A stretch of 53,766 bases of DNA from Candidatus Halobeggiatoa sp. HSG11. Lineage in GTDB: Bacteria > Pseudomonadota > Gammaproteobacteria > Beggiatoales > Beggiatoaceae. Positions within the stretch are counted from its first letter, which is position 1. Every line of letters begins with the position of its first letter. Below are positions 3,027 through 26,634 of this stretch, in pieces. The position numbers and the translations under genes are program-made. Below the pieces are notes generated by a model, which made no database searches, had not been told where the DNA came from, and was given only the letters and a program-made list of their open reading frames with translations. Location: the NCBI GenBank assembly GCA_030378105.1, contig JAUCGL010000012.1:1-53766 (forward strand), written 5' to 3'.

Positions 3027-5510
3027 ATGTTAAATACTTATAAACAACATTGTACAGAACGTGCTACCCAAGATTTACCACCTTTACCATTGGACGTTGA
3101 ACAAGTAACTGATTTGGTAGAATTACTTAAAAGTTCAGATGACCAAGAATTATTGGGTTTATTAGTTAATCGAGTACCACCTGGAGTTGACGAAGCTGCT
3201 GAAATTAAAGCTAATTTTTTGGCTAACCTTGCTAAAGGTAATGAAACTTGTCCTTTGATAACTCCTAATCATGCAACGGAATTGCTTGGCACAATGCGTG
3301 GTGGTTATAACTTGCAACCTTTAGTGGATTTACTGGACAATGAAACTCTAGCTCCAATTGCTGCTAAAGCTTTATCCCATACCTTATTGATTTTTGATGC
3401 TTTTGAGAAAATAGTTGCCAGACAAGATAAATGGTCAACTCAAATTTTAAATTCTTGGGCGGAAGCAGAATGGTTTACTTCAAAACCAAAATTACCAGAA
3501 TCCATAACTGTCACCATATTTAAAGTAGACGGCGAAACCAATACCGATGATTTATCTCCAGCATCAGAGGCTTGGAGTCGGCCAGATATTCCATTACATG
3601 CTAAAGCTATGCTTATCAATAAAATGCCAGATGCTTTACAAGTCATGGCAGATTTGCAGAAACCAATAGCTTATTGTGGTGATGTGGTTGGTACTGGTTC
3701 TTCTCGTAAATCAGCAATTAATTCATTGATTTGGTATATTGGTGATGATATTCCTCACATTCCTAATAAACGTCAAGGTGGGGTGATTTTAGGCGGTAAA
3801 ATAGCTCCAATTTTTTTCAATACTGCTGAAGATTCAGGAGCATTGCCGATAGAATGTGACGTAAGTAAGATTAAGCATGGTGATGTGGTTACGATTTATC
3901 CATATCAAGGTCGGATTGTGAATCAAGCTGGCGAAGAGATAAGCACCTTTAAACTTTATCCAGTTACTTTACCAGATGAAATCCAAGCTGGTGGACGAAT
4001 TCCATTGATTATTGGCCGGACTTTAACTAATAAAGCTCGGAAAACTCTGGGACAAGAACCAACTCAAATATTTATCAGTCCTGAAGCCAGCAAAACTTAT
4101 ACTACTGGTTTTACCTTAGCTCAAAAAATTGTTGGTAAAGCCTGTGATGTGGCTGGAATAAGGCCGGGTACTTATTGCGAACCGAAGATAACAACTGTTG
4201 GCTCTCAAGATACAACTGGAGCTATGACTCGTGATGAATTGAAGGAATTGGCTTGTTTGCATTTTTCAGCCGATTTAGTCATGCAAAGCTTTTGTCATAC
4301 TGCTGCTTATCCTAAATCAATTGATATTCAGTTACAAAATAATTTGCCAACTTTTATGGGGCAACGTGGTGGAGTTTCATTACGGCCCGGTGATGGCATA
4401 ATTCATTCATGGATCAATCGGATGATTTTACCGGATACAGTTGGTACTGGTGGTGATTCTCATACTCGGTTTCCAATGGGGATAAGTTTTCCGGCTGGTT
4501 CAGGTCTAGTAGCATTCGCTTCAGCATTGGGCATTATGCCTTTAGATATGCCAGAATCAGTTTTAGTACGTTTTAAAGGTGAAATACAGCCCGGAATAAC
4601 TCTGCGTGATTTGGTTAACGCTATTCCTTATATTGCTATTCAAGAAGGGTTGCTAACAGTCGCTAAAGCTGGTAAAAAGAATATTTTTTCTGGTAAAATT
4701 TTAGAAATTGAAGGTTTGCCTAAGTTAAAAGTTGAACAAGCTTTTGAATTTGCTGATGCTTCCGCAGAACGTTCTGCTAATGGTTGTACTGTTAGATTGG
4801 ATAAGGAACCTATTATTGAATATTTGACTTCCAATATTGCGTTGTTACGTCAAATGATAGCTGATAATTATGGTGATAAAGATACAATAGCCCGCAGAAT
4901 TTCGGCGATGGAAGATTGGTTAAATAATCCAGTATTGTTGGAACCTGACAGTGATGCAGAATATGCTGCCACAATTGAAATTGACTTGAATGAGATAAGA
5001 GAACCGTTACTGGCTTGTCCTAACGATCCTGATGATGTCAGGCTTTTGTCACAGGTTGCCGAACAGAAAATTGATGAAGTATTTATTGGTTCGTGTATGA
5101 CTAATATTGGCCATTATCGGGCAGCAAGTAAGGTATTAAAAGACGATGTACCAGTTCGCTTATGGATAACTCCGCCAACTCGTATGGATGAGCATCAATT
5201 AGTGCAGGAAGGTGTGTATTCTATCTTTGGTAAAGCTGGGGCAAGGACTGAAACACCTGGTTGTTCTTTATGTATGGGAAATCAAGCGAGGGTTAAGGAA
5301 AATGCCACTGTTGTTTCCACTTCAACTCGTAATTTTCCTAATCGTTTGGGAAAAAATGCTGATGTTTATTTAGCCTCGGCTGAATTGGCTGCTATAACTG
5401 CTAAATTAGGTAAAATACCAACTGTAGCCGAGTATATGCAAAATTTTGAAGCTATCAGTTCCGCATCAGATGAAGTATATCAATATTTGAATTTTTCTGA
5501 AGCATCGTAA
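3027..5510 (+). CDS. acnB: Aconitate hydratase B AcnB
   Basis: Bifunctional aconitase B, catalysing citrate-isocitrate interconversion in the TCA cycle with a [4Fe-4S] cluster. The 827-residue product has the AcnB-specific order: an N-terminal HEAT-like domain (residues 1-160), the swivel domain (about 165-375, with [18 protein letters not shown]) and the three catalytic domains. Cluster ligands are visible as Cys690 (GSCMTN) and Cys746/Cys749 (CSLCMGN). The substrate-site run [10 protein letters not shown] follows. It is slightly shorter than E. coli AcnB (865), the difference lying at the ends. In other bacteria AcnB can also bind mRNA when it loses its cluster; nothing here tests that. It lies between two intergenic repeats and seems monocistronic. 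Confidence 0.95.
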
Positions 5511-5523
5511 TTTGTTTTTTTGT

Positions 5524-5547
5524 AGAGACAAGGCATGCCTTGTCTCT
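5524..5547. repeat. 24-bp perfect palindrome after acnB
   Basis: A perfect palindrome whose arm reads AGAGACAAGGCA, centred between 5535 and 5536, 14 bases after the acnB stop. As RNA it would fold into a strong hairpin followed shortly by TTTTTT, so it may act as a terminator. Similar GAGACAAGGC palindromes are common dispersed repeats in other bacteria. Confidence 0.6.
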
Positions 5548-5591
5548 TCATTTTTTAAATAATCCTCCAATCAAAAAATTCCATCGTATTC

Positions 5592-7151
5592 ATGTTTACC
5601 TTCATAAAATCAGTATATCTTTCAATTCTTAAATACCCAAAATTAGGTGATATTTTAGCCCTCCTCAGTGGTGCTATTTTACCATTGGCCTACGCTCCTT
5701 ATTCTATGTCTTCAATCGCAATATTGTCATTAATGATGTTATTTGTACTATGGCAAAACATCACTCCCAAACAAGCTTGGTGGCGAGGTTTTTTATATGG
5801 GATAGGTATGTTTGGAATGGGAGTATCGTGGGTACATATCAGCTTTTATCAATTTGGTGGTTTGCCAATGGTAGGAGCCATTTTATTAACTCTGGTTTTT
5901 GTGTTAATCATGGCTATGTATCCAGCATTTTTAGGTTGGTTACTTATTCGTTATTTCCCTGATCCTAAACATAATTTGCTTTTATTACCAGCAGCTTGGA
6001 CTTTAATGGAATGGTTACGAGGTTGGTTATTTACTGGTTTTCCTTGGTTAAGCATTGGTTATGGCCAAATTGATTCACCATTTAATAGTTTTGCACCATT
6101 ATTGGGAGTTTATGGAGTTAGCTTTTTTACTGTATTAGCAGCAGTGTTACTTATTATTTATGTTCTTAATTCCAAGTCATTAACTAGACCAATTAATACC
6201 ACTTTTTTTATATTGATTGCATTAGTTATTGTTACAGAATTAGTAAAAAATATAGAATGGACTAAACCAATAGATAAACCGGTTAAAGTAGCTCTTATGC
6301 AAGGTAATGTACCGCAGGAATTCAAATGGTTATCAGGTTTTCAACTACCAAGTATGCAGCGTTATTTGGAATTAAGTCAATCTCATCGTGATGCCGATCT
6401 TATTATCTGGCCTGAAACAGCTATTCCATTGTTTTATCATGAAATACCTAGTTATGCTCCCGGTTTTTTAGAGGAGTTAAGACGAGAATATTTGGAACAT
6501 AAAACTGATTTTTTAATTGGGGTTCCAATAATGCACTCAGATGGAACTTATTATAATGCAGTGATGACTTTTACCGATAAATCAGAGTTTTATTATAAAA
6601 ATCATCTAGTTCCTTTCGGAGAATATATTCCTTTACAATTTATTTCTGGCAATTTATTTAAACTACTTAACATTCCAATGTCAGAATTTTCATCTGGTGC
6701 TAAAAAACAAGCTCCTTTAACAAGTGTTGGACATTCTGTTGGAGTATCAATCTGTTATGAAGATGCTTTTGGGGATTTAATCCGCAATAGTTTACCAGCA
6801 GCAGAATTATTGGTCAATGTCAGTAATGACGCTTGGTTTGGTGATTCAATTGCTCCCCATCAACATTTAGAAATAGCCCGTATGCGAGCTTTGGAGACTG
6901 GTCGTTATTTGTTGCGTGCAACTAACACTGGTATTTCTGCCGTGATAGATAACAAAGGTAAAATAATTGCCCAATCTCCACAGTTTAAAATAACTGCCTT
7001 ACGTGCAGAAGTGCAACCGTATCAAGGAATAACTCCTTATGTTCGATTTGGCGATAATTTAATAATATTTATATCATTGTTCATATTAGGTTTAGCATAT
7101 TTTTTAAGAATTATTCGCTTTTCAATGGTTCGGGCAGTTTTTGACAAGTAA
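5592..7151 (+). CDS. lnt: Apolipoprotein N-acyltransferase Lnt
   Basis: Integral inner-membrane enzyme that adds the third acyl chain to outer-membrane lipoproteins such as BamC. The N-terminal half (residues 20-220) holds about six to seven hydrophobic segments. A periplasmic nitrilase-like domain follows at about 230-480, and a final membrane segment at 487-508. The Glu-Lys-Cys triad is visible as Glu275 (WPETAIP), Lys336 (YYKNHLVPFGEY) and Cys388 (VSICYED). The 519-residue length fits the family (E. coli 512). The ATG follows the acnB palindrome by 44 bases with no good ribosome site. Its usual neighbour ybeX/corC is absent. Family assignment is firm. Confidence 0.95.
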   Translation: MFTFIKSVYLSILKYPKLGDILALLSGAILPLAYAPYSMSSIAILSLMMLFVLWQNITPKQAWWRGFLYGIGMFGMGVSWVHISFYQFGGLPMVGAILLTLVFVLIMAMYPAFLGWLLIRYFPDPKHNLLLLPAAWTLMEWLRGWLFTGFPWLSIGYGQIDSPFNSFAPLLGVYGVSFFTVLAAVLLIIYVLNSKSLTRPINTTFFILIALVIVTELVKNIEWTKPIDKPVKVALMQGNVPQEFKWLSGFQLPSMQRYLELSQSHRDADLIIWPETAIPLFYHEIPSYAPGFLEELRREYLEHKTDFLIGVPIMHSDGTYYNAVMTFTDKSEFYYKNHLVPFGEYIPLQFISGNLFKLLNIPMSEFSSGAKKQAPLTSVGHSVGVSICYEDAFGDLIRNSLPAAELLVNVSNDAWFGDSIAPHQHLEIARMRALETGRYLLRATNTGISAVIDNKGKIIAQSPQFKITALRAEVQPYQGITPYVRFGDNLIIFISLFILGLAYFLRIIRFSMVRAVFDK

Positions 7152-7152
7152 A

Positions 7153-7568
7153 TGAGTTTCACAGAAATTTCATGATGTCCACAGAACGTCCATATTCCGT
7201 GGACTAATCAATTAGACATCTTTCCTAAATAAGTATATATACTTAATTTAACTAAGCTTGCCGCAGATAAGCTTTTATATTCCACCGATTTCATCGGAGG
7301 CTATTCACATTCAATCCTTTCAGGATAGTTAAAACAACCCCAACGGGGTTCACACTTGAATAGCCATAGGTGAAACCTATGGAATCAAATCAATTAAAAT
7401 GCTCTCTGCGTCAACCATCAGTTATTTAGGAAAGATGTCTATTTTTCAGTGAAATCGGTTATAATTGCCTTGATACGTCCGGTCTCATTGGGCGACCTCA
7501 CACTGAAGTAGCTCCATCCCACCAACTTTCCCATGACGTTACACGGTGAGCTTGTTCAAAATTTCAAG
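7153..7568 (+). repeat. Repeat family D, full copy split by element B
   Basis: The copy starts one base after the lnt stop with TGAGTTTCACAGAAATTTC and runs to CTTGTTCAAAATTTCAAG. It is interrupted at 7214-7443 by element B. The uninterrupted copy at 42205-42391 shows the same sequence without the insertion. Near its left end is a hairpin, TCCACAGAA/TTCCGTGGA around CGTCCATA. Other copies lie at 37089-37232 (inverted), 45618-45680 and 32096-32153 (partial). Confidence 0.75.
7214..7440. mobile_element. MITE-like element B, intact copy
   Basis: A 227-bp non-coding element with perfect 19-bp terminal inverted repeats, AGACATCTTTCCTAAATAA at 7214-7232 and its complement at 7422-7440. It is flanked by ATT on both sides (7211-7213 and 7441-7443). 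The flanks rejoin to the empty site seen at 42.25 kb. Inside are four consecutive short hairpins with three-base loops: CCACCGAT-TTC, ATCCT-TTC, AACCCC-AAC and CCATAGGT-GAA. The first has one mismatch in this copy. No transposase is encoded. Partial copies lie at 42581-42759 and 52332-52604. Confidence 0.75.
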
Positions 7569-7941
7569 TAATATACGGATATCCTTCGATTTTTAAGAGT
7601 AAATTTACATTCATTGCAAAATAAATTTTGTACCCTTATTTGAAAATTTTCTGCATAATATCAGTTAATTAATTTCTCCATCAAGTTATAATCAAAGTCT
7701 ATTACTTGACCTTAAACAAGGTAAAAATAACTCTAAAGAAGCATATTTAAACAATCTATATTTTTAAAGAATCTTTTTTCGTAAAGGATATTTTTTAAGT
7801 TATAAAAACCATAACCCAAGATTTATTTTGGGTATTTTTATATTAATATAAATATATTCTATTAAATGTTATTAAATATTCACTTGAAATAGATATTTTC
7901 GTTTTTAAAATCTATCAGATCTAAAATAAAAGGTAAAAATC
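7569..7941. other. Gene-free leader of the redox operon
   Basis: AT-rich DNA without a credible ORF. A small ACCTT-AAAC-AAGGT hairpin lies near 7708-7721. A stronger terminator-like hairpin is listed separately at 7814-7839. No clear FNR, ArcA or sigma-54 site was recognised. A weak AAAGGT ribosome site precedes the ATG at 7942. Confidence 0.5.
7814..7839 (+). terminator. Terminator-like hairpin ahead of the redox operon
   Basis: ACCCAA at 7814-7819 pairs with TTGGGT at 7828-7833 and is followed by ATTTTTA. Since no gene lies between lnt and here, it could end read-through from lnt or act as an attenuator in the leader of the operon starting at 7942. The stem is only six pairs, so strength is uncertain. 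Confidence 0.4.
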
Positions 7942-8808
7942 ATGCCTGATTCGCATGAAAAAACACGTCGTTCTTATGGATTACAAACTGCTGGTACCAA
8001 AGGTGTAGCCGGAACCAAACGCTATGCAATGATCATTGACCTAAGAAAATGTATAGGTTGTAGGTCTTGTATGGTTGCTTGCAAAGCTGAATTTGGAATT
8101 CCTTTAGGAGTCTGGCGAACTTGGGTAAAAGAAGGCGATAAAGGTAGATATCCAAATACTAAACGGATATTTATGCCACGCCTGTGTAATCACTGCGATT
8201 ATCCAGTTTGTGTTCGCAACTGTCCAACTCAAGCAACTTTTAAACATAAAGATGGCTTTGTATTGCAACGTTATAATCGTTGTATCGGCTGTCGAACTTG
8301 TATGGTTGCTTGTCCTTATAATGCTAGGCATCTTATTCCAGCCAAGCGGACTGATGGAAACTTACCTACAATGGTAGTTGACAAATGTACTTTTTGTATT
8401 CATCGGGTGAAAAAAGGTATAGTTCCTTCTTGTGTTCAAGCCTGTGTTGGTGGAGCAAGAATTTTTGGGGATATGAATGATCCCAATAGTGAAGTAGCCA
8501 AATTAGCTTCCAAAGAAACTTTAACCGTATTAAAACCTGAATTAGGCACAAGCCCATCGGTTTCTTATATTGGTGGAGATTGGGAGTTGATGGATGAGCC
8601 ACATAGCTATACTAATCGTTCTACCGGTCTTAAAGAAGAATTCAATGATTTCAAACGGAATCATAAAGGTGATGCGTTTGGTGATATTATTGAAGGTGGC
8701 GACTCAACTATGAAACAAGTTGGTCAAAATATGAACGGTTTTTTACACACTATTCCACACAAAGCGAAAAATGTATTTGACGCATTTGTGAATTTTCTTT
8801 TTAAATAG
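7942..8808 (+). CDS. Four-cluster Fe-S subunit of an NrfD-linked redox complex
   Basis: DmsB/PsrB/NrfC-type ferredoxin subunit that would carry electrons between the catalytic subunit and the membrane anchor. All sixteen cysteines of four [4Fe-4S] clusters are present: 37/40/43/47, 82/85/90/94, 114/117/120/124 and 149/152/164/168. The 288-residue length exceeds the usual 190-240 because of an extra C-terminal tail of about 80 residues rich in charged residues. No Tat or Sec signal is obvious, so export would depend on the partner at 10305. It is the first gene of the cluster; an NrfD gene follows after nine bases with a strong ribosome site. The substrate of the complex cannot be told from this subunit. 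Confidence 0.85.
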   Translation: MPDSHEKTRRSYGLQTAGTKGVAGTKRYAMIIDLRKCIGCRSCMVACKAEFGIPLGVWRTWVKEGDKGRYPNTKRIFMPRLCNHCDYPVCVRNCPTQATFKHKDGFVLQRYNRCIGCRTCMVACPYNARHLIPAKRTDGNLPTMVVDKCTFCIHRVKKGIVPSCVQACVGGARIFGDMNDPNSEVAKLASKETLTVLKPELGTSPSVSYIGGDWELMDEPHSYTNRSTGLKEEFNDFKRNHKGDAFGDIIEGGDSTMKQVGQNMNGFLHTIPHKAKNVFDAFVNFLFK

Positions 8809-8817
8809 GAGGTCAAC

Positions 8818-9726
8818 ATGAACGAAAGTGTCATTACTTATAATGTGTTCCATCATGTTGCGTGGGGAACCACTATCTCTGTTTATTTCTGGCTAGTTGG
8901 AGCAAGTGCTGGCTCATTTGTTATTTCCAGCTTTGGCTGGGTATTCGGTATTAAACGCTATAAACCATTAGCTTTGACAGCATCTGTAACAGCAATCGCT
9001 ATGTTGCTTATTGTCCCAATATTATTAATCTGGGATTTGGGTAGACCATTACGGTTTTTGTATCTTATGCTACCCGGTTACTGGCACGCTACCGGGCCGA
9101 TGTCATGGGGTACTGCATTAATTTTTTCCTACCCTATCGCAATGCTTATTTATACTTATTTTGTAGTCAAAAATAATCCGTTATGGGCTAAAATAGTCGG
9201 CATTGTTTCTATTGTTTTGGCTTTATCCACTCACTGGTACACTGGTGTAGTGATGGAACTTAACCCGGGCCGTTTTCTTAATCACACTGCCCTTGCGCCG
9301 TTGTTATTTTTAACTGGAGCTTTCATTTCTGGAATTGGCTTATTAATTCTGATTTTATGGATACAAAATATGTTTGTTGCCATCAAAAATCGAATTGAAT
9401 GGGCGTTGATAGAAGAAATGGCTCAGTACATGATGTATGGCTTAGTCTTCGATGCTTTTCTACTCTTTTTAGATTTTATGCAGACTTTATATGGTAGCCA
9501 TAGTGAAGTTATGGGACATGAAATCGTATTGATGGGAGTATTTAGATTCCCCTATTTGTGGCTAGAAATGGTTATTGGTTTAATCATTCCATTCTTTATT
9601 CTTGTATCGCCTATTAAGAAATTTAAGGCAGGGATTATATTAGCCGCATTATTAGTAGCAGTCGGAGTTTACGGAATGAGAGTTTGGTGGGTTATGGGTG
9701 GCCAGTATCTACAAACGTTTTATTAA
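8818..9726 (+). CDS. NrfD/PsrC-type quinone-interacting membrane subunit
   Basis: Polytopic protein of 302 residues in the NrfD (PsrC) superfamily, which passes electrons between the quinone pool and an Fe-S partner. About eight hydrophobic helices are visible. Family landmarks are the GASAGSF run in helix 1-2 and IWDLGRPLRFLYLMLPGYW followed by GPMSWGT. A strong AGGAGGTCAAC site precedes the ATG, which fixes the start. It belongs to the operon beginning at 7942. Its stop runs straight into an AT-rich repeat, after which a foreign-looking S23 gene interrupts the cluster. Assignment to NrfD is firm; the direction of electron flow is unknown. Confidence 0.88.
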   Translation: MNESVITYNVFHHVAWGTTISVYFWLVGASAGSFVISSFGWVFGIKRYKPLALTASVTAIAMLLIVPILLIWDLGRPLRFLYLMLPGYWHATGPMSWGTALIFSYPIAMLIYTYFVVKNNPLWAKIVGIVSIVLALSTHWYTGVVMELNPGRFLNHTALAPLLFLTGAFISGIGLLILILWIQNMFVAIKNRIEWALIEEMAQYMMYGLVFDAFLLFLDFMQTLYGSHSEVMGHEIVLMGVFRFPYLWLEMVIGLIIPFFILVSPIKKFKAGIILAALLVAVGVYGMRVWWVMGGQYLQTFY

Positions 9727-9727
9727 T

Positions 9728-9840
9728 TCTTAATGCTATAATTCTTAATTCTTAATTAAAACCTAACAATCAACATCTATACTTTTCAAAGGTTTTGAAG
9801 TTAATTAAGCATTAAGAATTCATAATTAAGAATTAATATA
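9728..9840. repeat. AT-rich repeat, left of the S23 gene
   Basis: About 113 bp, beginning just after the NrfD stop. It shares with the copy at 10192-10304 the left part ATTCTTAAT...CTTAATTAAAA and the right part TTTTGAAGTTAATTAAG followed by ATTAAGAATT. Each copy is itself an imperfect inverted repeat. It ends three bases before the ATG of the S23 gene. Confidence 0.65.
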
Positions 9841-9843
9841 ATC

Positions 9844-10197
9844 ATGAAAGAGAATATTGTTAAAGATAAGAGTTTTAGGTTTGCTGTTAGGATTGTGAAT
9901 TTGCGTAAATTTCTTGTTGAGGAAAATAAAGAATTTATTTTAAGTAAACAACTTTTACGTTCGGGAACATCTGTTGGTGCTATGGTAAGAGAAGCAGAAC
10001 GAGGTGAAAGTAAAGCAGATTTCGTCCATAAACTAGCAATCGCTCAGAAAGAATGTAATGAAACATTATATTGGCTTGAACTTTTATATAAAACCGATTT
10101 TTTATCGCAAAAACAATTTGATAGTATCAATAGTGATGCGATAGAATTAATCAAACTAATAACAAGTATCATCAAAACTACTAAAGGCAATTCTTAA
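9844..10197 (+). CDS. Four-helix-bundle protein (S23 / 23S rRNA intervening-sequence family)
   Basis: A 117-residue helical protein with the family signature QLLRSGTSVGAMVREAE, then KADFVHKLAIAQKECNETLYWLELL. Relatives are encoded in intervening sequences of some 23S rRNA genes and as free-standing genes; the related Avd protein assists diversity-generating retroelements. The biochemical role of free-standing copies is not known. Here it sits between two subunits of one redox complex and is bounded on both sides by direct copies of the same AT-rich repeat, so it looks inserted. No ribosome site is visible; the start follows the repeat by three bases. No 23S rRNA or reverse transcriptase gene is in the window. 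Confidence 0.85.
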   Translation: MKENIVKDKSFRFAVRIVNLRKFLVEENKEFILSKQLLRSGTSVGAMVREAERGESKADFVHKLAIAQKECNETLYWLELLYKTDFLSQKQFDSINSDAIELIKLITSIIKTTKGNS

Positions 10198-10304
10198 TTA
10201 TGAATTCTTAATGCTTAATTAAAATCTTAATAGTCAATAACTTAATAAATTGAATTTAAAGATTTTGAAGTTAATTAAGAATTAAGAATTAAGAATTAAA
10301 AATT
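10192..10304. repeat. AT-rich repeat, right of the S23 gene
   Basis: About 113 bp, a direct repeat of the element at 9728-9840. It overlaps the last codons and stop of the S23 gene and ends directly against the ATG at 10305 (AAGAATTAAAAATT then ATG). It supplies the entire upstream context of the molybdopterin-subunit start, which has no Shine-Dalgarno sequence. Confidence 0.65.
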
Positions 10305-12653
10305 ATGATCGACAGACGTGATTTTCTGAAGATAGGGGCAGCGACGACGGCGACTGCGGCTTGTCCGGCGTTTATAGATGCTATGGAATTGCAGCTTGGT
10401 GGACAAGATTTTCACCAAATAAGAACTTACCATGCTCGCCAAAGAAAACCCTATTTATGTACCATGTGTTCTTACTTTGATGGTGGCTTCACCTATGCGG
10501 AAGCTGGGGAAGTTATGAAAACTGAGGGCAACCCAGATCATATCGCTACTCGAGGTAAGTTTTGTAGTAAAGGATTGGCATCTTTTTTCGGAGCCTCTGA
10601 TCCAGATCGAATATTGAATCCATTGAAACGAGTTGGAGAGCGTGGAGCTGGTAAATGGAAAGAAATAACTTGGGAAGAAGCAATTAAAGAAGTTTCTGAA
10701 AAAGTAAGTGTTAATTTAGACGATGCAGATAGTATCTATCTGAATGAAGGTGGTTTTAAAGATGGTGGTGCAATTAGATTTATGCACACTATTGGTTCGC
10801 ATTCCATTATTCGCAGTCGTTTACAAGGTATTGGCACTGCTCCTAAACAAATGGCTTTAAAGCAAATGACTGGAGTTAATTTTATCCTGCCAGATTTAGA
10901 ACATACCAAATATGTGTTAAATTTTGGGGCTAATATTATGGAAACTGCTTTACCATTAGCCCAACGTTTAACTGATGGTATTGTTAATAATCGTTTAAAA
11001 TTAGTGACTTTTGATGTAAGAATGTCTAACACAGCCGGGCGTAGTGATGAATGGTTGCCAGTCTTTCCGGGCAGTGATGGAATAATTGCATTGGCGATGG
11101 CTAACGTTATTTTACAAAATGGTTTAGCAAATACCGACTTTATTTCTTACTGGACAAATTATTCACTGGAAGAATTAACTAAAGATTTGGCAAAATTCAC
11201 TCCAGAAATGGCAGAAGAAGCAAGTGGAGTTCCAGCTAAAACTATAGTTAATATTGCAATTGAGTTTGCTAAATCTAAACCAGCAGCAGTATTTAGTCAT
11301 AATGGTTTGAGTTGGCATAAAGATGGTATTGATAGCGAAAAAGCTTGCTTATTATTAGCAGCAATTACCGGTAATATTGACAATGAAGGTGGAAATTGTT
11401 TGCCACGTCAGTTTAATATTGCCGAACCACAACCAGCTCCTGAGTCAACTGAAAATGCAACAAAAACTATGCACTATAGCTTTCCATTTGAAGTAAAAGA
11501 TGGTAAACGTAATGTACAAGTATTGTTCAATCATATGAGTAATCCTGCTTATTCTGCTCCAGCCGCTAGTCTATGGCGAGAAATGTTAAAAGATGAGAAG
11601 AAGATTCCATATATAGTTGATTTTAGTCCATTTATGAGTGAAACTGCTGAATTGGCTGACATTATTCTGCCTGATGTAGTGGATGTGGAACGAGATAATA
11701 TTGCTAGTAGTCCAACCGCTTTATGGCCTTGGATGACTATGACAATTCCTAATATAGAGCCATTGGGTAAAGCTCAAGATGTTCGTATGACTATGAAAAA
11801 GATAGTGGAAGCTATTGACCCAACTGGTGATAAAGGTATGAAACAATATTGGGCTTTTTCCAATACCAAGCAATGGGTTAAAGACGAAATAAAAGCCACT
11901 GAAGGTACAGATAAAAAGACTTATAAGCGATTGAAGTCAAAAGGTGTATGGCCTAACTACGGCAAAATTGATCCGGCGGATCGCAAAATTTTGGATAAGA
12001 AAGGTAATCCTGTATTAGCTAAATACGCTACCTATAAGGAAGAAGGTTTTGCTACTTCATCTGGTAAAATGGAATTTGATTCACTTTCTTGGACTAAAAA
12101 TCCACGTCATCAAGATTTAAAAGAGTCTGAATTTGTATTAACAACTTTTAAAGTAGCTTATCAAACTTTGTCTTTGACTTCCAATCTTAAATATATATCG
12201 GAAATGTATCACTCTAATCCACTGTGGCTTAATGGAAATGTGGCTAAGAAATTAGGAATAAGAGATGATAGTTTAGTAAGAGTCACTAGCGAAGTTGGTT
12301 TTCTTGTTACTAAAGCTTTCTTAACTCAAGGTATTCATCCGCAAGTGGTTGGTATTTCTACATCAGTTGGTCGTTCCGCTTATGGTCGAGTTGCTCAGGC
12401 TGATCCACATGCTCATATGCCATTTGCTAAGAAAGAGCAAGAAGACCCTGATATTGATGATAATTTATGGTGGCGAGATGCTGGCACTAATCCAAATGAT
12501 ATTATTCCATTAGCTATTGATCCAGCAAGTGGAGTACAAACTTGGAATGATACAGTGGTGACAATTTCTCCGGCCGAGGCGGGCGATAAATATGGCGATA
12601 TTAAAGTTGATAACGCTAAACATTTCGCTATTTACAAGCAATCACTGACTTAA
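10305..12653 (+). CDS. Molybdopterin-fold (DMSO reductase family) subunit with altered metal ligands
   Basis: Large subunit of the complex, 782 residues, with an N-terminal Tat motif RRDFLK (residues 4-9) and hydrophobic h-region, so it is probably periplasmic. The fold is clear: the cluster-binding N-terminus, a pterin-binding loop (about FDVRMSNTAGRSDEWLPVFP, 234-253), the PGSDG run, and MSETAELADIILPD near 443-456. The cluster motif reads Cys52-x2-Cys55-x3-Asp59-x27-Cys87: spacing is canonical but Asp replaces the third Cys. In the segment where the Mo-coordinating Cys, SeCys, Ser or Asp normally lies (about 164-190, GSHSIIRSRLQGIGTAPKQ) none of the usual ligands aligns. Loss of the Mo ligand would parallel electron-transfer members such as QrcB and ActB. 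Polysulfide, thiosulfate, sulfite or arsenic activity cannot be assumed. Confidence 0.8.
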   Translation: MIDRRDFLKIGAATTATAACPAFIDAMELQLGGQDFHQIRTYHARQRKPYLCTMCSYFDGGFTYAEAGEVMKTEGNPDHIATRGKFCSKGLASFFGASDPDRILNPLKRVGERGAGKWKEITWEEAIKEVSEKVSVNLDDADSIYLNEGGFKDGGAIRFMHTIGSHSIIRSRLQGIGTAPKQMALKQMTGVNFILPDLEHTKYVLNFGANIMETALPLAQRLTDGIVNNRLKLVTFDVRMSNTAGRSDEWLPVFPGSDGIIALAMANVILQNGLANTDFISYWTNYSLEELTKDLAKFTPEMAEEASGVPAKTIVNIAIEFAKSKPAAVFSHNGLSWHKDGIDSEKACLLLAAITGNIDNEGGNCLPRQFNIAEPQPAPESTENATKTMHYSFPFEVKDGKRNVQVLFNHMSNPAYSAPAASLWREMLKDEKKIPYIVDFSPFMSETAELADIILPDVVDVERDNIASSPTALWPWMTMTIPNIEPLGKAQDVRMTMKKIVEAIDPTGDKGMKQYWAFSNTKQWVKDEIKATEGTDKKTYKRLKSKGVWPNYGKIDPADRKILDKKGNPVLAKYATYKEEGFATSSGKMEFDSLSWTKNPRHQDLKESEFVLTTFKVAYQTLSLTSNLKYISEMYHSNPLWLNGNVAKKLGIRDDSLVRVTSEVGFLVTKAFLTQGIHPQVVGISTSVGRSAYGRVAQADPHAHMPFAKKEQEDPDIDDNLWWRDAGTNPNDIIPLAIDPASGVQTWNDTVVTISPAEAGDKYGDIKVDNAKHFAIYKQSLT

Positions 12654-12671
12654 AAGTTAAGGAGAGAAATT

Positions 12672-13322
12672 ATGAAACTTCCGAAAACTAAAGTCGGAAT
12701 TATTTTAACTGGTATTGCTGTTTTTGGTCTAATCATGGTTGTTGCAGTTGCTGGCTGGAGTAGTACTCGCTTTAATAGGGTAGATGTTTGTGTTACCTGT
12801 CACGAGATATTTGTTGATTATGATGAATATAAACAGACTGCTCCTTTAAGTACTTCAGTGGAGGACTTTAAGCCAACTAAAGAGTATGATCCGGGTTTCT
12901 TTAATGTAACTGTTGGTTGTGCTGAATGTCATGCTTATCCATATGAAGAATATAGGGAATCACCACATTATGATAATGAACGTGGTGTTAAAGCTGGCTG
13001 TGTTGGTTGTCATGAACCACATAGCGTTAGGGAAGTGTTAGCTTGGAAGTTCTTCTACGTTAATTCTGGAGGTACGGGCGATAGTCCATTCCATGCTGTT
13101 TCAAATAGCTTACGTGATATTCCTGAATGGGAAAAATTGCGAGTTAAACTAGCTACTAAAGTGCGTAAACAGATGATGGAAGAAAATAGTGCCAAATGTA
13201 AAGTCTGTCACAAAACTGAAGGTAAATGGTTTGCTAAGAAAAAACAGCACCAGACAACTGAAAAAACTTGTGTACAATGTCATTACAACCTAGTACATAA
13301 AGAAGTTAAGTGGCACAAGTAA
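12672..13322 (+). CDS. Membrane-anchored pentahaem cytochrome c (NapC/NirT/NrfH-like)
   Basis: A 216-residue protein with one N-terminal membrane anchor (residues 8-29) and a periplasmic domain with five CxxCH sites at 40-44, 83-87, 110-114, 176-180 and 200-204. The NapC/NrfH quinol dehydrogenases usually bind four haems in about 200 residues, so five in this length is unusual. AGGAGAGAAATT precedes the ATG, 18 bases after the stop of the molybdopterin-fold gene, making it the last gene of the operon. It likely relays electrons between the complex and periplasmic carriers. A terminator follows. Confidence 0.85.
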   Translation: MKLPKTKVGIILTGIAVFGLIMVVAVAGWSSTRFNRVDVCVTCHEIFVDYDEYKQTAPLSTSVEDFKPTKEYDPGFFNVTVGCAECHAYPYEEYRESPHYDNERGVKAGCVGCHEPHSVREVLAWKFFYVNSGGTGDSPFHAVSNSLRDIPEWEKLRVKLATKVRKQMMEENSAKCKVCHKTEGKWFAKKKQHQTTEKTCVQCHYNLVHKEVKWHK

Positions 13323-13347
13323 GTTAAACTTGTTGAGAAGACATTGA

Positions 13348-13381
13348 GGCCTGCCGGTTTTTTTATCCGGTAGGTCTTTTA
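13348..13381 (+). terminator. Terminator of the redox operon
   Basis: GGCCTGCCGG at 13348-13357 pairs with CCGGTAGGTC at 13367-13376 (ten pairs, two of them G-U), followed by TTTTAT. It lies 26 bases after the cytochrome stop codon, in the right place to end the transcript starting before 7942. Confidence 0.75.
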
Positions 13382-13486
13382 TGGTAAGGGGGTATACAAA
13401 CAGGAAATGTTATACTTACAATTCATATGTCAAAAGAATTAAATTTTCTCTAACAAAAGTAAGCGAATAATATCTCGTTCCCAACG

Positions 13487-13625
13487 TCTCGTTGGGAATG
13501 CCTATCATATACCGCTCTGCGGTATTCATTTTAAGTATTAAGATAGAACCTTAACATACTTAATTTAAGTGACTCTGTACCAAAATGAATACCGCAGAGC
13601 GGTATGGTAGGTATTCCCAACGAGA
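13487..13625. repeat. Long inverted repeat G
   Basis: Arms of about 45 bases (13487-13532 and 13582-13625) read TCTCGTTGGGAAT... and ...ATTCCCAACGAGA, with TACCGC-TCT-GCGGTA inside each. The loop region has further pairing (TTAAGTATTAAG against CTTAACATACTTAA). A small hairpin, GTTCCCAACG-TCT-CGTTGGGAA, adjoins on the left. Non-coding; it would form a very stable cruciform or RNA hairpin. Confidence 0.7.
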
Positions 13626-13704
13626 TAAATAGATAAAAATTATGTTATAATTTACTAAAGATAAATTACTGTTTTGTATATATCAATTTTATTTATCAAT
13701 AGGG

Positions 13705-13860
13705 CCCTTTATAATCAGAAATTTTCTTCTTGCTTTGAGTTTTCCACTTTTAACACCTATCTTAATATTAATCTTTTTAGCTTTGATTAAATTCAATACA
13801 GTGTGGCGAATGATTAACCATATTGACATCTCCACAACCTTCTTTATATTCACTCTTTAA
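13705..13860 (-). pseudogene. Remnant of a transposase C-terminus (ISAs1-like)
   Basis: Read on the minus strand from about 13845, a short open stretch gives MSIWLIIRHTVLNLIKAKK, then KIGVKSGKLKARRKFL. This resembles the extreme C-terminus of ISAs1-type DDE transposases (typically a run like IRHIALNLLK followed by a lysine-rich G-I-K segment). Stops and frame changes lie just upstream. No catalytic residues or IS ends remain. Recognised by eye only. Confidence 0.4.
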
Positions 13861-13893
13861 AATTCAAGTGGACAAATCATTATATAATCAATT

Positions 13894-14064
13894 TATAGGT
13901 GTTCGTGATTTGATAGAAATGTATTTTTAATTGTGAAGTAAGTTGAATTAAAAATGGTTAATAACTTAATGGTTTTGATTTTAATTAATCATTATTAATT
14001 CACAGTTAACCATTCACAATTAATTATACGTATCAACTAGTTAAAGTTATCTCGAACACCTATG
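13894..14064. mobile_element. MITE-like element H with both ends
   Basis: A 171-bp AT-rich element with inverted ends ATAGGTGTTCGTGAT (13895-13909) and ATCTCGAACACCTAT (14049-14063). Its core is the TTAATTGTGAA...TTCACAATTAA inverted repeat shared with 2.8 and 38.9 kb. The ten bases ATAATCAATT occur on both flanks (13884-13893 and 14065-14074), consistent with a target-site duplication. It encodes nothing. Confidence 0.65.
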
Positions 14065-14237
14065 ATAATCAATTATTGGGTTTAAGCGTGTTAATAATGT
14101 ATAATTATTGTGCCTACTGTTTTTGGTTACTTAAAAAATAAATTACAAAGGACAAGGCAAAATCGAAAATATAAAAAATTTATAAATTAACAATCCGACA
14201 CACAATTAAACTTAAATCTTTCACTAAAAGGTAATTT

Positions 14238-15491
14238 ATGTTTTCAAACCAATTGAATATTGCAGATTTTGATTCTGAACTATGGCAAGCGATGCAAAAT
14301 GAAGTAACTCGTCAAGAAGAACATTTAGAGTTAATTGCTTCAGAGAACTATGCCAGCCCAAGAGTATTGCAAGCTCAAGGTTCAGTATTGACCAATAAAT
14401 ATGCAGAAGGTTATCCATATAAACGCTACTATGGTGGTTGCGAATACGTTGATGCTGCTGAACAGTTAGCAATTGATCGAGCCAAACAATTATTTAACGC
14501 TGACTATGCCAATGTTCAACCTCATTCAGGTTCTCAAGCTAATACTGCGGTTTACATGGCTTTACTTGAACCGGGCGATACTGTATTAGGTATGAAATTA
14601 TCTGATGGTGGTCATTTAACTCATGGTTCCAAGGTTAATTTTTCTGGTAAAATATACAATGCAGTTCAATATGGTTTAAATCCAAAGACTGGTGAAATTG
14701 ATTACGAACAGGTTGAAGCTTTGGCACAAGAACATAAACCCAAAATGCTTATGAGTGGTTTTAGTGCTTATTCACGGGTGGTTGATTGGCAAAGATTGCG
14801 TGAGATTGCTGATAAAGTTAATGCCTATTTAGTATCTGACATAGCTCATGTTGCTGGTTTAGTTGCGGTTGATTTGTATCCAAGTCCTATGCCATTTGCT
14901 GATGTTGTCACCACCACAACTCATAAAACTTTGCGTGGACCAAGAGGCGGTTTAATTCTTGCTAGAAGTAATCCAGAGATTGAGAAAAAACTTAACTCAG
15001 TAGTATTTCCCGGTATTCAAGGTGGGCCTTTAATGCACATAATAGCAGCTAAAGCAGTTGCTTTTAAAGAAGCTCAACAGCCAGAGTTTAAAGCCTACCA
15101 AACTGAAGTTATAGCAAATGCAAGAGCAATGGTGGCAGTTATGTTAGAGCGTGGTTATAAGATTGTATCTAATGGTACGGATAATCATCTGTTTTTATTA
15201 GATTTAATTGATAAAAATATCACTGGTAAAGTTGCTGATGCAGCGTTGGGAAAAGCAAATATTACTGTTAATAAAAACACTGTTCCTAACGATCCAAAAT
15301 CACCATTTGTAACAAGTGGTTTAAGAATTGGTACACCTGCTATAACTACTCGTGGGTTAGGTATAGAAGAATCTCGTCAAATTGCTGGTTGGATCTGTGA
15401 TGTAATTGATGATGTAGAAAATACCTCTTTACAAGCAGAAATTAAAACTAAGGTACTCGAATTATGCTCTCGTTTTCCGGTTTATAATTAA
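14238..15491 (+). CDS. glyA: Serine hydroxymethyltransferase GlyA
   Basis: PLP-dependent enzyme making glycine and 5,10-methylene-tetrahydrofolate from serine. The 417-residue length equals that of the E. coli enzyme. The PLP lysine is Lys230 in [16 protein letters not shown]. Other landmarks are LIASENYAS (32-40), [13 protein letters not shown] (55-67) and the His of SDIAHVAGL (200-208). AAAAGGTAATTT gives a reasonable ribosome site. ribD follows after three bases, so they are co-transcribed. In many gammaproteobacteria nrdR sits between glyA and ribD; it is absent here. Confidence 0.97.
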
Positions 15492-17473: not shown

Positions 17474-18811
17474 TTGACATCTAACAATTCCAATAAACAA
17501 AACGCTTCTTTAGCTATACTTAAACGATTAGCAATACGAGGTTCTATTTGGGTAATTATAGGCTTCGGAATATCGCAAATTATGCGTTTTGGTGGCAACG
17601 TTGTATTAACCAGATTATTATCTCCAGAAGCATTTGGTATCATTGGTACTGTAACTGCGGTATTAATTGGGTTAGAAATGTTCTCTGACGTTGGTTTAAG
17701 ACCTAACATAATTCAAAGTCAACGTGGTGAAGAACCAGCATTTATACGTACAGCTTGGACAATTCAGATAATTAGAGGTATTATTTTAACAATAGCGGCT
17801 ACAGCTTTTGCTTGGCCATTGGCTGCTATTAATAATGAACCAAGTTTAACTACTATAATTCCAGTAGCTGGTTTAACGGCAATTATAGCTGGTTTTAACT
17901 CAACTTGGTTATTAGTCTATTCCCGTCGTATGGTATTGGGTAAGTTAGTTATTCTTGATTTAGTATCCCACTCTTGTAGTTTGATTACAATGATGATATG
18001 GGCTTGGTATTATCCATCTGTATGGGCATTAGTTGCTGGTATTTTCGCCAATCGAATAGTTAAAGTTGCTGCTAGTCATACTGTATTGGCTGGTACTACA
18101 ATGAAAATGCAATGGGAACCACAAGCGGCAAGTGAATTAATTCGGTTTGGAAAATGGATATTTATAAGCACTGCTTTAGGATTTTTAGTAGCTAGATTGG
18201 ATATTTTCGTATTTGGTAGTATTGCTGGTATGGGCATGTTGGGTATTTATTTATTGGCAAAAAATTTGTCTCGTCTAACTTTAGAGCCATTAATACGATT
18301 GTCTTCCACAGTTTTATTGCCAATGTATTCTAAAATAATTGAGCAAGAACCGGCAGTCCTTCGTAGTCAAACCTTTAAAAGCCGAGCGATGTTATTGATT
18401 TTATTTTTACCACCATTATGGGCAATGGTATTATGGGGAGAACAAATAATAGAGTTTATTTATGATGACCGCTATCATGAAGCAGGATGGATATTAAAAG
18501 TTTTATCTGCTGGTATACTTTCTAGTTCAATTATCAGTACTATAACTCCCGTATTATTAGCTATGGGAGATTCTTTTAGGAATTTAATCAGTACAACCAA
18601 TCGTTTTGTTTTACAAATATTAGGGATGGTAATTGGAACTTATTATGCGGGGGCAACCGGATTTATAATTGGCGTTTCTATGGCGGAATTTCTATGTTAT
18701 CCACTGCTAGTTTATTTAATTTATCCTTATAAAGTATGGTTGCCTCTATTAGATGGAGTTGCTTTTGGCAGTTCTTTTATTGTCATTTGGATAGCTTTTG
18801 GAATAAATTAA
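17474..18811 (+). CDS. Polysaccharide flippase (Wzx/MVF-type, oligosaccharide flippase family)
   Basis: A 445-residue integral membrane protein with about 12 hydrophobic helices. The N-terminal signature RFGGNVVLTRLLSPEAFG and FSDVGLRPNIIQ is typical of flippases that move lipid-linked glycans across the inner membrane (capsule, O-antigen or exopolysaccharide export). The start is a TTG with AAGGA about ten bases upstream. No glycosyltransferase or Wzy gene is nearby, so the substrate is unknown and the gene is separated from any polysaccharide locus. It may be co-transcribed with ribDE by position only. Confidence 0.85.
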   Translation: MTSNNSNKQNASLAILKRLAIRGSIWVIIGFGISQIMRFGGNVVLTRLLSPEAFGIIGTVTAVLIGLEMFSDVGLRPNIIQSQRGEEPAFIRTAWTIQIIRGIILTIAATAFAWPLAAINNEPSLTTIIPVAGLTAIIAGFNSTWLLVYSRRMVLGKLVILDLVSHSCSLITMMIWAWYYPSVWALVAGIFANRIVKVAASHTVLAGTTMKMQWEPQAASELIRFGKWIFISTALGFLVARLDIFVFGSIAGMGMLGIYLLAKNLSRLTLEPLIRLSSTVLLPMYSKIIEQEPAVLRSQTFKSRAMLLILFLPPLWAMVLWGEQIIEFIYDDRYHEAGWILKVLSAGILSSSIISTITPVLLAMGDSFRNLISTTNRFVLQILGMVIGTYYAGATGFIIGVSMAEFLCYPLLVYLIYPYKVWLPLLDGVAFGSSFIVIWIAFGIN

Positions 18812-19050
18812 ATATTTGGTAGTTCTGAACAATGTAGTTATCAGTTTGTCTTGAAAACCAAAAAAACATCTTTCTGAAATAAAAACAGATTTAATTGATA
18901 AATTTGCTAGAAAAAATCTCACATTATATGCTTCCATTCTTTAATTCTATATATTAATATTTCGTTCAGGACTACCATATTTGGTAATTCTTTATCCTTT
19001 TGTGATATTATCTTTGCCATTTCTGAAAATTTATTAACAAATTATAAATA

Positions 19051-20040
19051 ATGAAGTCACAAGACCCAAAATTAATAGTCCAAGCTGCTCCGTTTCTACA
19101 GCAAGGTTTAACCACTCCTCAAGCCATGCTGGATGTCATTTATGTTTTAATTCCAATTACTTTATTATCAGTATATTTTTTTGGTATTGGAGTGTTATTA
19201 ATCTTAATTGCAACAATTTTAGGAGCAGTGTTAACCGAATGGATATTTTCAGAAAAACATGCTCTATTAGATGGTAGTGCCATATTAACTGGATTGTTGC
19301 TTGGATTAACTTTACCTCCGAATTTACCGTTATGGATGGCTTTTGTTGGTAGCGTAGTTGGGGTTGGATTAGGTAAAACTATTTGGGGAGGATTAGGCAA
19401 TAATCTATTTAACCCAGCTTTGGTTGGACGAGCTTTTCTATTGGCTAATTTTCCGGTTGCCATGACCACTTGGGTTGCACAGACAGACAGTTTATTCACC
19501 ATATCTGCCAGCAATCTTGCTATGCCGTTTATGCAATCCCCAGATGCGATCAGCACAGCAACTCCATTAGGAATGATGAAATTTGAACAACAAGCAACTC
19601 CTTTATTAAACCTTATGTTTGGTAACTCATCTGGTTCTTTTGGTGAGACTTGTGGATTATTAATTATTTTAGCTGGACTTTATTTAATTTTACGGCGTAG
19701 CATTGACTGGCGGATTCCAGTAGCTATTTTAGGTTCAGTTGCAATATTTACTGGTATATTATTTATATATAATTCAGATATTTATCCAAGCCCATTATTT
19801 ACCATATTTTCTGGTGGTTTATTATTTGGATGCTTTTTTATGGCTACCGATCCGGTTACTTCGCCATTGACACCAAAAGGAGCTTGGATATTTGGGATTG
19901 GAATTGGAATTATCGTGGTATTAATTCGAGTATTTGGAGGTTTTCCAGAAGGAGTTATGTATGCCATTTTGTTGATGAACGCAACTGTACCATTAATTGA
20001 ACGATATACTCAACCCAGAGCATTTGGGCATAAATCCTAA
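19051..20040 (+). CDS. rnfD: Rnf electron transport complex subunit RnfD
   Basis: Membrane subunit of the Rnf complex, which couples electron flow between ferredoxin and NAD to ion transport. The 329-residue product has about nine hydrophobic helices. The covalent FMN site is Thr171 in the ISTATPL run. LLDGSAILTGLLLGLTLPP and the TDPVTSP run are strongly conserved; the C-terminus PRAFGHKS matches E. coli PRVYGHRKG. RnfD belongs to the NqrB/RnfD family; the short N-terminus favours RnfD. It stands alone, unlike the usual rnfABCDGE order; rnfE and rnfA lie 24 kb away and rnfB, rnfC and rnfG are not in the window. No clear ribosome site. Confidence 0.92.
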   Translation: MKSQDPKLIVQAAPFLQQGLTTPQAMLDVIYVLIPITLLSVYFFGIGVLLILIATILGAVLTEWIFSEKHALLDGSAILTGLLLGLTLPPNLPLWMAFVGSVVGVGLGKTIWGGLGNNLFNPALVGRAFLLANFPVAMTTWVAQTDSLFTISASNLAMPFMQSPDAISTATPLGMMKFEQQATPLLNLMFGNSSGSFGETCGLLIILAGLYLILRRSIDWRIPVAILGSVAIFTGILFIYNSDIYPSPLFTIFSGGLLFGCFFMATDPVTSPLTPKGAWIFGIGIGIIVVLIRVFGGFPEGVMYAILLMNATVPLIERYTQPRAFGHKS

Positions 20041-26156: not shown

Positions 26157-26579
26157 TTATTTGGTAAACTCATGTCGTATATAAGTTACAAGTTCCCAAA
26201 GTTTTTCTTCAGAAAGACCAACATCAGAATCAGGTCCTACTGGAACCATTTCAGTACCTTCACTACCATTCAGCATAATCCAAAATAACTGGCCATCTTT
26301 TCTACTTATCATATAACCATGATTACTAAATGCTGCTGGTTTTATTTCTATAGATTCAGCATGATAGCCTTTGCCATCTCCTTTTTTACCATGACATTTG
26401 CTACATTTTCTTTTATAAAGCCGACCTACTCTTTTCAAAAATTGTTCATCAATTTCAGATTGTTGAATAGGATTTTGCATATCTAAATATTCTTGTGGAG
26501 CAGTCGGAATTTGATGTTCTTCTGCATTAACAACAGAAGTTAAAATACTTAAAATAATTATTGTACCTATTGCCTTCAT
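26157..26579 (-). CDS. Small periplasmic c-type cytochrome
   Basis: About 140 residues with a Sec signal peptide (MKAIGTIIILSILTSVVNA, cleaved near Ala19) and a single haem site CSKCH followed by GKKGDGKG, typical of class I cytochrome c. A distal Met ligand is likely in TEMVPVGP. The start is the ATG at 26579, because AGGAGGT lies just upstream; a longer reading from GTG at 26594 would put the ribosome site inside the gene. It converges on pilZ. Partner and pathway are unknown; a general electron-carrier role is inferred. Confidence 0.83.
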   Translation of the reverse strand: MKAIGTIIILSILTSVVNAEEHQIPTAPQEYLDMQNPIQQSEIDEQFLKRVGRLYKRKCSKCHGKKGDGKGYHAESIEIKPAAFSNHGYMISRKDGQLFWIMLNGSEGTEMVPVGPDSDVGLSEEKLWELVTYIRHEFTK

Positions 26580-26634
26580 ATAATACCTCCTCACAATATA
26601 CTTACAATGTAAATAGCTTTCTGCGTAACATCAG

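Follow-up and report, generated by a model that had tools for sequence, protein, structure and literature searches.

We analyzed a 53,766-nucleotide stretch of DNA (the window; positions 1 to 53,766 of contig JAUCGL010000012.1) from Candidatus Halobeggiatoa sp. HSG11, which carries a conserved four-gene operon in the order FeS-NrfD-MopB-NapC/NirT cytochrome, where FeS denotes an iron-sulfur subunit and MopB a molybdopterin-fold subunit. As judged from sequence comparisons, the four genes probably form an undescribed respiratory complex that leads from the quinone pool to the nitrite reductase of denitrifiers. The features of the operon are listed below, with residue numbers counted in the MopB protein.

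7942..8808, + strand: iron-sulfur subunit, TtrB/DsrO-like, with 16 Cys for four [4Fe-4S] clusters (Pfam Fer4_11)
8818..9726, + strand: NrfD/PsrC-type membrane subunit with the presumed quinone site (Pfam NrfD, 1.3e-28)
10305..12653, + strand: MopB subunit without Mo ligand, 782 aa, PsrA/Ttr-like (open reading frame, ORF; Pfam; PsrA alignment)
10458..10565, + strand: cluster motif C52-x2-C55-x3-D59-x27-C87, codons C52 to C87 (sequence and alignment)
10833..10835, + strand: Gly177 codon (GGC), the Mo-ligand place (PsrA alignment and Cys-bearing rows)
12672..13322, + strand: NapC/NirT-family pentahaem cytochrome c, fourth operon gene (Pfam Cytochrom_NNT, 4.8e-29)

The iron-sulfur subunit scores 217.6 bits with the NCBIfam TtrB model (cut-off 416) and 202.1 bits with DsrO (cut-off 200), and its 16 Cys are kept in 17/17 aligned rows (16 distinct) of the clade to which the window locus belongs, here called clade X. 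Residues Y23, D73, Y141, and T142 of the NrfD subunit are conserved in X and in rows whose MopB bears a ligand Cys (Cys-type rows), and they are similar, by order only, to the TtrC quinone-site residues tabulated in the available part of PMC8076601. The fourth gene reaches 101.7 bits with Cytochrom_NNT against a cut-off of 24.1, which places it in the NapC/NirT family, and it has five CxxCH motifs in 17/17 X rows (16 distinct).

MopB and its Mo-ligand place

Pfam recognizes Molybdopterin (5.8e-26), Molydop_binding, and Tat-signal in the 782-residue MopB, with the Fe4S4 domain narrowly below its cut-off (22.6 vs 22.7 bits). The motif C52-x2-C55-x3-D59-x27-C87, which the initial annotation described as canonically spaced with Asp for the third cluster Cys, is present in the translation at those places and with that spacing. 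The annotation also saw no Mo ligand, and two alignments bear this out. When MopB is aligned with PsrA (2vpw, E 1.2e-34), the PsrA segment slCtap lies opposite giGtap, which puts Gly177 at the ligand place, and the same column emerges from an alignment with 82 rows that bear the ligand Cys. These reference rows (68 Asp-type, 10 and 4 others; L021 and L134 were left out) were chosen for that residue, so Cys in 82/82 is by choice; in the 18 X rows, which represent 17 distinct proteins since L030, L112, and L174 are one contig, the column holds Gly in 13 and Ser in 5. The flanking residues G164 and K181 are conserved. A loop insertion of two residues (172-173) is found in 18/18 X rows, and anchoring the alignment from the N-terminal side would make residue 175 the ligand place, which is Gly in the window protein and Ser in 10/18 X rows. 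Because residues 177 and 175 are both Gly, no Cys, Ser, or Asp stands at the ligand place of the window protein.

Both D59 and IGTAPK recur in three sister genomes, and the ratio of nonsynonymous to synonymous substitution rates (dN/dS) of mopB among Thioploca loci is 0.09-0.13; D59 and Gly177 are therefore not a sequencing fluke. The same dN/dS evidence led us to reject the reading of mopB as a pseudogene. For all four operon genes, dN/dS among Thioploca is 0.04-0.16.

Structure prediction, which the initial annotation had proposed as a check, gave an AlphaFold2 model with a mean predicted local distance difference test score (pLDDT) of 85.4 and a predicted template-modeling score of 0.86, with pLDDT ∼78 in block 171-180. 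Residues 171-178 are predicted to lie between a strand and a helix that starts at 179. The modeled fold is matched best by PsrA (VIA Z 32.9, root-mean-square deviation 2.5 over 650 residues), and the ActB-type chain 6lod_B also matches the model (Z 26.6).

Ligand loss, exchange of TorD for NapC/NirT, and the age of Asp59

Relatives were gathered from 57 near genomes, 369 of the class, 398 of the phylum, 247 from the phylum to which the deltaproteobacterial genome G779 belongs, and a named genome collection (best 80 rows); the sample of relatives is incomplete, and all trees are of the quick kind. Left out of the alignments and counts were L117 and L011 (partial X) and L053, L093, L098, and L103 (broken or partial), of which L053 and L093 were included in the TorD count. 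The window protein falls in clade X, for which 17 distinct genomes and proteins were found and which is nested in a Cys-bearing family; among the matches listed, the closest named loci are those of Thioploca sp. metagenome-assembled genomes, at 85-86% identity.

The ligand Cys is lost in 18/18 X rows. Of the reference-conserved columns, 4/4 in the loop (H171, T174, C177, and E178) are lost in X, compared with 22/120 elsewhere (Fisher p 0.0016), and outside the loop R150, Y332, and R333 are replaced as well; the Arg presumably has a role in turnover, as in PsrA. Position 171 is an invariant Ser in X. C52, C55, C87, and K89 are retained, and 84/124 conserved columns in all are kept at ≥90%, consistent with the statement in the initial annotation that pterin-binding loops remain. 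The 84 kept columns presumably include those that touch the pterin.

The sister clade Y (L015, L074, L115, L118, L119, L139, L140) is without the cluster set as well, with at most one cluster Cys left per row in 7/7 rows, so that the cluster would be dispensable for a scaffold role in some members. X and Y together form one branch within the Asp/Cys-ligand family, with a value of 100 in the Shimodaira-Hasegawa-like approximate likelihood ratio test (SH-aLRT), and this branch holds in a tree built without the trait columns, from which L002, L009, L135, and L154 were left out. Y alone is poorly supported (61 in the main tree; not one branch in the trait-free tree). Because X+Y is one branch in a Cys-ligand family, the simplest reading of these trees is a single ligand loss that preceded the X-Y split.

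We rejected kinship of X+Y with QrcB by the approximately unbiased (AU) test (p 0.00016, on a quick tree with long branches whose 6 Qrc rows include one, L126, below the QrcB cut-off) and by the score of MopB below that cut-off. Kinship with a further ligand-less group, Z (L142-L152, phylum of G779), was likewise rejected (p 0.0007; quick trees with long outgroup branches). Group Z has Glu, Asn, Leu, Ile, Ser, Pro, or His at the ligand place, four cluster Cys in 10/11 rows, and an adjoining hexahaem gene in 6/11, and it is perhaps another Qrc-like complex of separate origin. L021, from the canonical C-C-C-C group, has Gly in the ligand column, with a dihaem ORF of weak NapC likeness downstream, and may represent another independent ligand loss.

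Ligand loss coincides with the absence of a TorD gene and the gain of the pentahaem NapC/NirT gene. TorD-type chaperones are established to mature molybdoenzymes (PMC4464133, in the text available). A TorD-like gene is present in 60/64 loci of the Asp/Cys-ligand family, the four exceptions being contigs that end 0-0.2 kb after mopB, and in 0/18 X, 0/7 Y, and 0/11 Z loci; ten more X regions, 12-20 kb long, had none either. The TorD-like model used for this count was built up from two proteins with a confirmed PF02613 domain, and the count covers ∼1.5 kb of flank for L106-L119, with longer regions added afterward. Searching 12 whole genomes with PF02613 (TorD/NarJ), where G439 and G782 probably represent a single genome, we found none in 10, 4 in G779, in which the Cys-type relative L153 also occurs, and 2 in G784, off its X contig. 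Because PF02613 finds no TorD/NarJ-type gene in the source genome G000, and none near its narG, the whole-genome search may miss some, and we therefore place weight on the locus comparison. The narG-type gene of the source genome (L162 5142-8807, G000:C84) is followed by an ATPase-like ORF, not narHJI. Wherever an X locus has sequence downstream of mopB, the next gene is of NapC/NirT type, and no NapC/NirT homologue at E 1e-8 was found in 15/15 Cys-type loci checked.

Asp59 has a different history from the ligand loss. Outside X and Y, C-C-D-C occurs with a ligand Cys in 68/68 rows that score 580-900 bits (score-picked, and including the identical pair L134 and L141), and on this evidence we rejected Asp59 as the mark of a dead enzyme. 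On the strength of these rows, Asp59 is older than clade X and neutral on catalysis. As the alignments place them, the two oddities of the window protein are of different age, with Asp59 inherited and the ligand loss derived. Rows at 300-420 bits vary: the ligand Cys accompanies C-C-C-C in 11 and C-C-D-C in 4, and it is missing in 3. Asp also replaces the third cluster Cys in L019, L023, and L024; since this Cys-ligand group is separate, Asp arose more than once or was lost in between. The group has the motif CWQCVTRD or CWGCVTRD and a trihaem ORF upstream.

The Asp/Cys-ligand relatives, which are presumed to be catalytic, are 39-47% identical to the window protein when aligned. Their FeS-NrfD-MopB-TorD operons, with Asp at the MopB cluster (FS0) and a Cys ligand (most of L034-L105), occur in sulfur oxidizers and denitrifiers, and the hosts among the matches listed are Thiobacillus, Sulfuricella, Thauera, Aromatoleum, Allochromatium, Sedimenticola, and others. 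We found no name or substrate for this family.

Linkage to nirS and a small cytochrome c

The X operon is linked to a nitrite reductase, which goes beyond what the initial annotation saw. The cytochrome d1 domain PF02239 is present in 19/22 genomes searched, and a cd1-domain gene lies on the same contig, 1.3-3.6 kb from the X mopB and mostly as part of a nirS cluster, in 9/17 genomes, where ∼0.35 would be expected (a rough value that treats genes as scattered). Ten regions were read, and 9/10 hold a NirS homologue: the L178 protein itself, seven proteins with 70-77% identity to it, and one in L170 with 45%. In the L177 region read, which has X at the start of its contig, no NirS homologue was found. 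The L178 protein is a true NirS, as it scores 522 bits to P. aeruginosa NirS vs 151 to NirN. The ten regions include nirF in 8/10 and nirDLGH-type genes in 6/10 (with a Pfam check for L171 only), and the clade Y locus L074 has the same kind of nirS cluster.

A mono-haem cytochrome c of ∼144 aa adjoins nirS, and the window has a copy of it 13.5 kb from mopB, in which Pfam recognizes Cytochrome_CBB3 and Cytochrom_C:

26157..26594, − strand: mono-haem cytochrome c, 145 aa, of the nirS-adjoining family, candidate electron carrier (47% to the L171 cytochrome)

This cytochrome is found at E 1e-25 or better in 17/17 X genomes and in 0/23 genomes of the same family without X (Fisher p 1.1e-11, uncorrected for kinship). 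The 23 control genomes, a set that leaves out G008, G016, G021, and G031-G035, gave a single weak match (G029, E 2e-9). In 16/17 X genomes a relative of the cytochrome lies ≤310 bp from a cd1-domain gene. Thioploca carries nirS on other contigs, and in the two genomes read the protein is 75-76% identical to L178 NirS and has the cytochrome alongside.

Other genes occur around these loci. A formylglycine-generating-enzyme-like protein (PF03781) adjoins the small cytochrome in the nir cluster of L171 (14069-15019) and L174 (5150-6100). L171 also encodes a 504-aa fusion of a cytochrome b N-terminal part with ferredoxin and FlpD/MvhD domains (17991-19502, − strand), with relatives near the X operon in L169, L172, L173, L174, and L177. 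In L033, a deltaproteobacterial X locus, the operon is followed at 4835-8129 by DsrO-like (192/200 bits), DsrP-like (327/350 bits), and tetrahaem genes, and in one Thioploca genome (L027, 6358-9951, − strand) it is followed by an opposite-strand nine-haem cytochrome with a formate-dehydrogenase-gamma-like part and by an octahaem protein with weak likeness to hydrazine dehydrogenase. Within the operon, the window has one additional ORF:

9844..10197, + strand: 23S rRNA-intervening-sequence-type four-helix-bundle ORF between nrfD and mopB (Pfam PF05635, 5.3e-28)

Scans of the sister loci L026-L028 and of other regions gave no homologue of this ORF, and the nrfD-mopB gap in three sister loci is <100 bp; it is not thought to be part of the complex.

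Proposed function, rival readings, and known systems

We think it fairly likely that the operon encodes a four-subunit, quinol-oxidizing, Mo-free relay that donates electrons to NirS, with MopB as scaffold and wire rather than enzyme. In this scheme, the NrfD subunit would oxidize quinol, and electrons would pass by way of the FeS subunit's four clusters, and probably also the Asp-containing MopB cluster, to the membrane-anchored NapC/NirT-type pentahaem cytochrome, from which the small c-type cytochrome would deliver them to the cd1 nitrite reductase. We infer from the sequences that quinol is the donor, that flow runs in this direction, that Mo is absent, and that the path includes the cluster. 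MopB itself derives from a Ttr/Psr-type molybdenum enzyme that lost the ligand Cys and other loop residues. The initial annotation had likewise favored a quinone-linked relay over a sulfur-compound reductase; the gain of the pentahaem cytochrome, the missing TorD gene, the loop decay, and the nirS link support it in this, and the Asp is no evidence for it.

Cytochrome bc1 or NirT is commonly regarded as the electron source of NirS. The cytochrome b domain PF00033 is present in 17/18 genomes, strongly so (E under 1e-66) in 15, and the one miss, G004, is 87% complete. The complex as a substitute for a missing bc1 is therefore unsupported, and it would instead be an additional, dedicated route. 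Whether it is a quinol:cytochrome c oxidoreductase of a new class, serving cd1 nitrite reductase specifically, we judge to be evenly poised; such a class would have come from a Mo complex by loss of the active site and chaperone and acquisition of a NirT-like cytochrome, with an origin separate from Qrc and from group Z, the Asp-ligated cluster reused as a wire, and possibly energy conservation at NrfD.

Several points weigh against the relay to NirS. NirS probably has a bc1-type donor too. There is no cd1-domain gene on the X contig in Thioploca (4 genomes), G480, G779, G783, and G784, these contigs being partly short, and the distribution of the small cytochrome may follow NirS instead of X. 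In clade Y, the genomes G091, G476, G479, and G584 have the four-gene operon with no strong PF02239 match and no close cytochrome relative (a weak match in G584, E 4e-11), so that a different acceptor must be served by part of Y. Different multihaem or Dsr-like neighbors are found in L031 and L033, and the FeS subunit stands 2 bits above the DsrO cut-off. Ser, a possible Mo ligand, is at 177 in 5/18 X rows, Ser171 is invariant, and X retains the FS0 ligands along with many motifs common to the fold, above the need of a pure scaffold. This retention, along with the precedent of AioA and IdrA, which hold Mo-bis(pyranopterin guanine dinucleotide) (Mo-bisPGD) without a protein ligand (PMC10100899, in the part available), would suit an active Mo-bisPGD enzyme that lacks a protein ligand, as in arsenite oxidase and iodate reductase, and uses the NapC cytochrome as donor or acceptor for an unknown substrate.

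We consider such a ligand-less enzyme unlikely, as H171, E178, R150, and R333 were lost together with the ligand, the sister clade Y lost the FS0 Cys set too, MopB scores 44.4 bits against a cut-off of 359 with the arsenite-oxidase model TIGR02693, and X loci have no TorD gene. The last argument is softened by arsenite oxidase, which presumably is also matured without a TorD-type gene. The Ser residues could mean that some members are Mo enzymes with a Ser ligand, at 177 or at 175, and that the Gly members (Thioploca, Magnetococcales, and others) are inactive or decaying, which we find very improbable: the operon, the nirS linkage (including the Ser members G128 and G568), and the absence of TorD are common to Gly and Ser members, and a dN/dS of ∼0.1 in the Gly-bearing Thioploca indicates no decay. 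The flow could also be reversed, from cytochrome c through NapC to quinone at NrfD, as in a Qrc-like quinone reductase. The module set equals QrcABCD, and modules of this kind work either way, since the available text of PMC6303296 sets Qrc, which reduces quinone, against Act, which oxidizes quinol; the linkage to nitrite reductase, a terminal acceptor, the 167.3 bits of MopB with the QrcB model NF041783 (cut-off 440), and the rejected clade with QrcB make this reversal quite unlikely for the window operon. To a reductase of polysulfide, thiosulfate, or tetrathionate, as simple best-hit annotation would give, we attach hardly any credence: PhsA is the best NCBIfam model (NF012032, 266.9 bits, cut-off 694) and PsrA the best structure, but MopB reaches no cut-off among the 25 families shown, the Mo ligand and loop are lost, and the context is that of a nitrite reductase.

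If the relay to NirS is true, denitrification in large sulfur bacteria and Magnetococcales would gain a new branch, with an NrfD complex reserved for nitrite reduction, and the energy yield of the nitrite-reduction step would become testable. The series from Cys with TorD, to Ser or Gly with NapC, to cluster loss would illustrate how a molybdoenzyme becomes a structural relay. It also warns that such MopB proteins are open to misannotation as polysulfide or thiosulfate reductases.

We found no published description of the four-gene complex in the open PMC literature, which leaves out most subscription papers; it is likewise undescribed in the available parts of PMC5276818, PMC2500031, PMC13059093, PMC3603346, and PMC3764938. 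For a magnetotactic coccus, the accessible text of PMC6783814 reports nirS clusters and a NirC-like cytochrome, with no mention there of the four genes. Other NrfD clusters with a molybdopterin part are of a make-up like alternative complex III (PMC10732223, in part). NirT, a NapC/NirT cytochrome, is required for NirS nitrite reduction in Stutzerimonas ZoBell and is encoded beside nirS in the nirSTB cluster, according to the sections of PMC13086519 available; NirT is tetrahaem, whereas the X cytochrome of the same family is pentahaem and comes with NrfD, FeS, and MopB subunits.

Among complexes with a molybdopterin fold, QrcABCD shares a Mo-less MopB-like subunit, a four-cluster FeS protein, NrfD, and a membrane-anchored multihaem cytochrome c (PMC6303296, as far as available). 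Its loci have the order cytochrome-MopB-FeS, in contrast to FeS-NrfD-MopB-cytochrome in the window, and the QrcB cut-off is unreached in 8/8 X, Y, and related genomes and in the source genome, while it is reached in 19/118 genomes of the phylum of G780. Alternative complex III (ActABCDEF) is a quinol:cytochrome c oxidoreductase with a Mo-free MopB fold and a pentahaem cytochrome (PMC8076601, available part). ActB is a MopB-FeS fusion, whereas the window has separate ORFs at 7942-8808 and 10305-12653, a weak distinction because some clusters of this kind also have split ActB parts (PMC4643136, in part). The interval 7151-14238 has no further ORF of ≥100 aa that could be ActD, E, or F, for which no profile search was made. 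The likeness to QrcB and ActB noted in the initial annotation thus stands as architecture, and the AU test rejects a shared descent with QrcB. Absence of an amino-acid ligand at the Mo place is common to AioA/IdrA and the window MopB (Gly177). With the Psr/Phs/Ttr/Srd systems the complex shares the fold (Z 32.9 to PsrA) and the four-cluster FeS and NrfD partners, but not the ligand Cys. Closest is the Asp-FS0/Cys-ligand family, which has the same FeS-NrfD-MopB order and the Asp, and which keeps the ligand Cys and TorD gene without a NapC gene, the opposite of clade X. The complex carries the full defining set of none of these systems and, as its sequences indicate, is like Qrc and alternative complex III by architecture and of Ttr/Psr type by descent.

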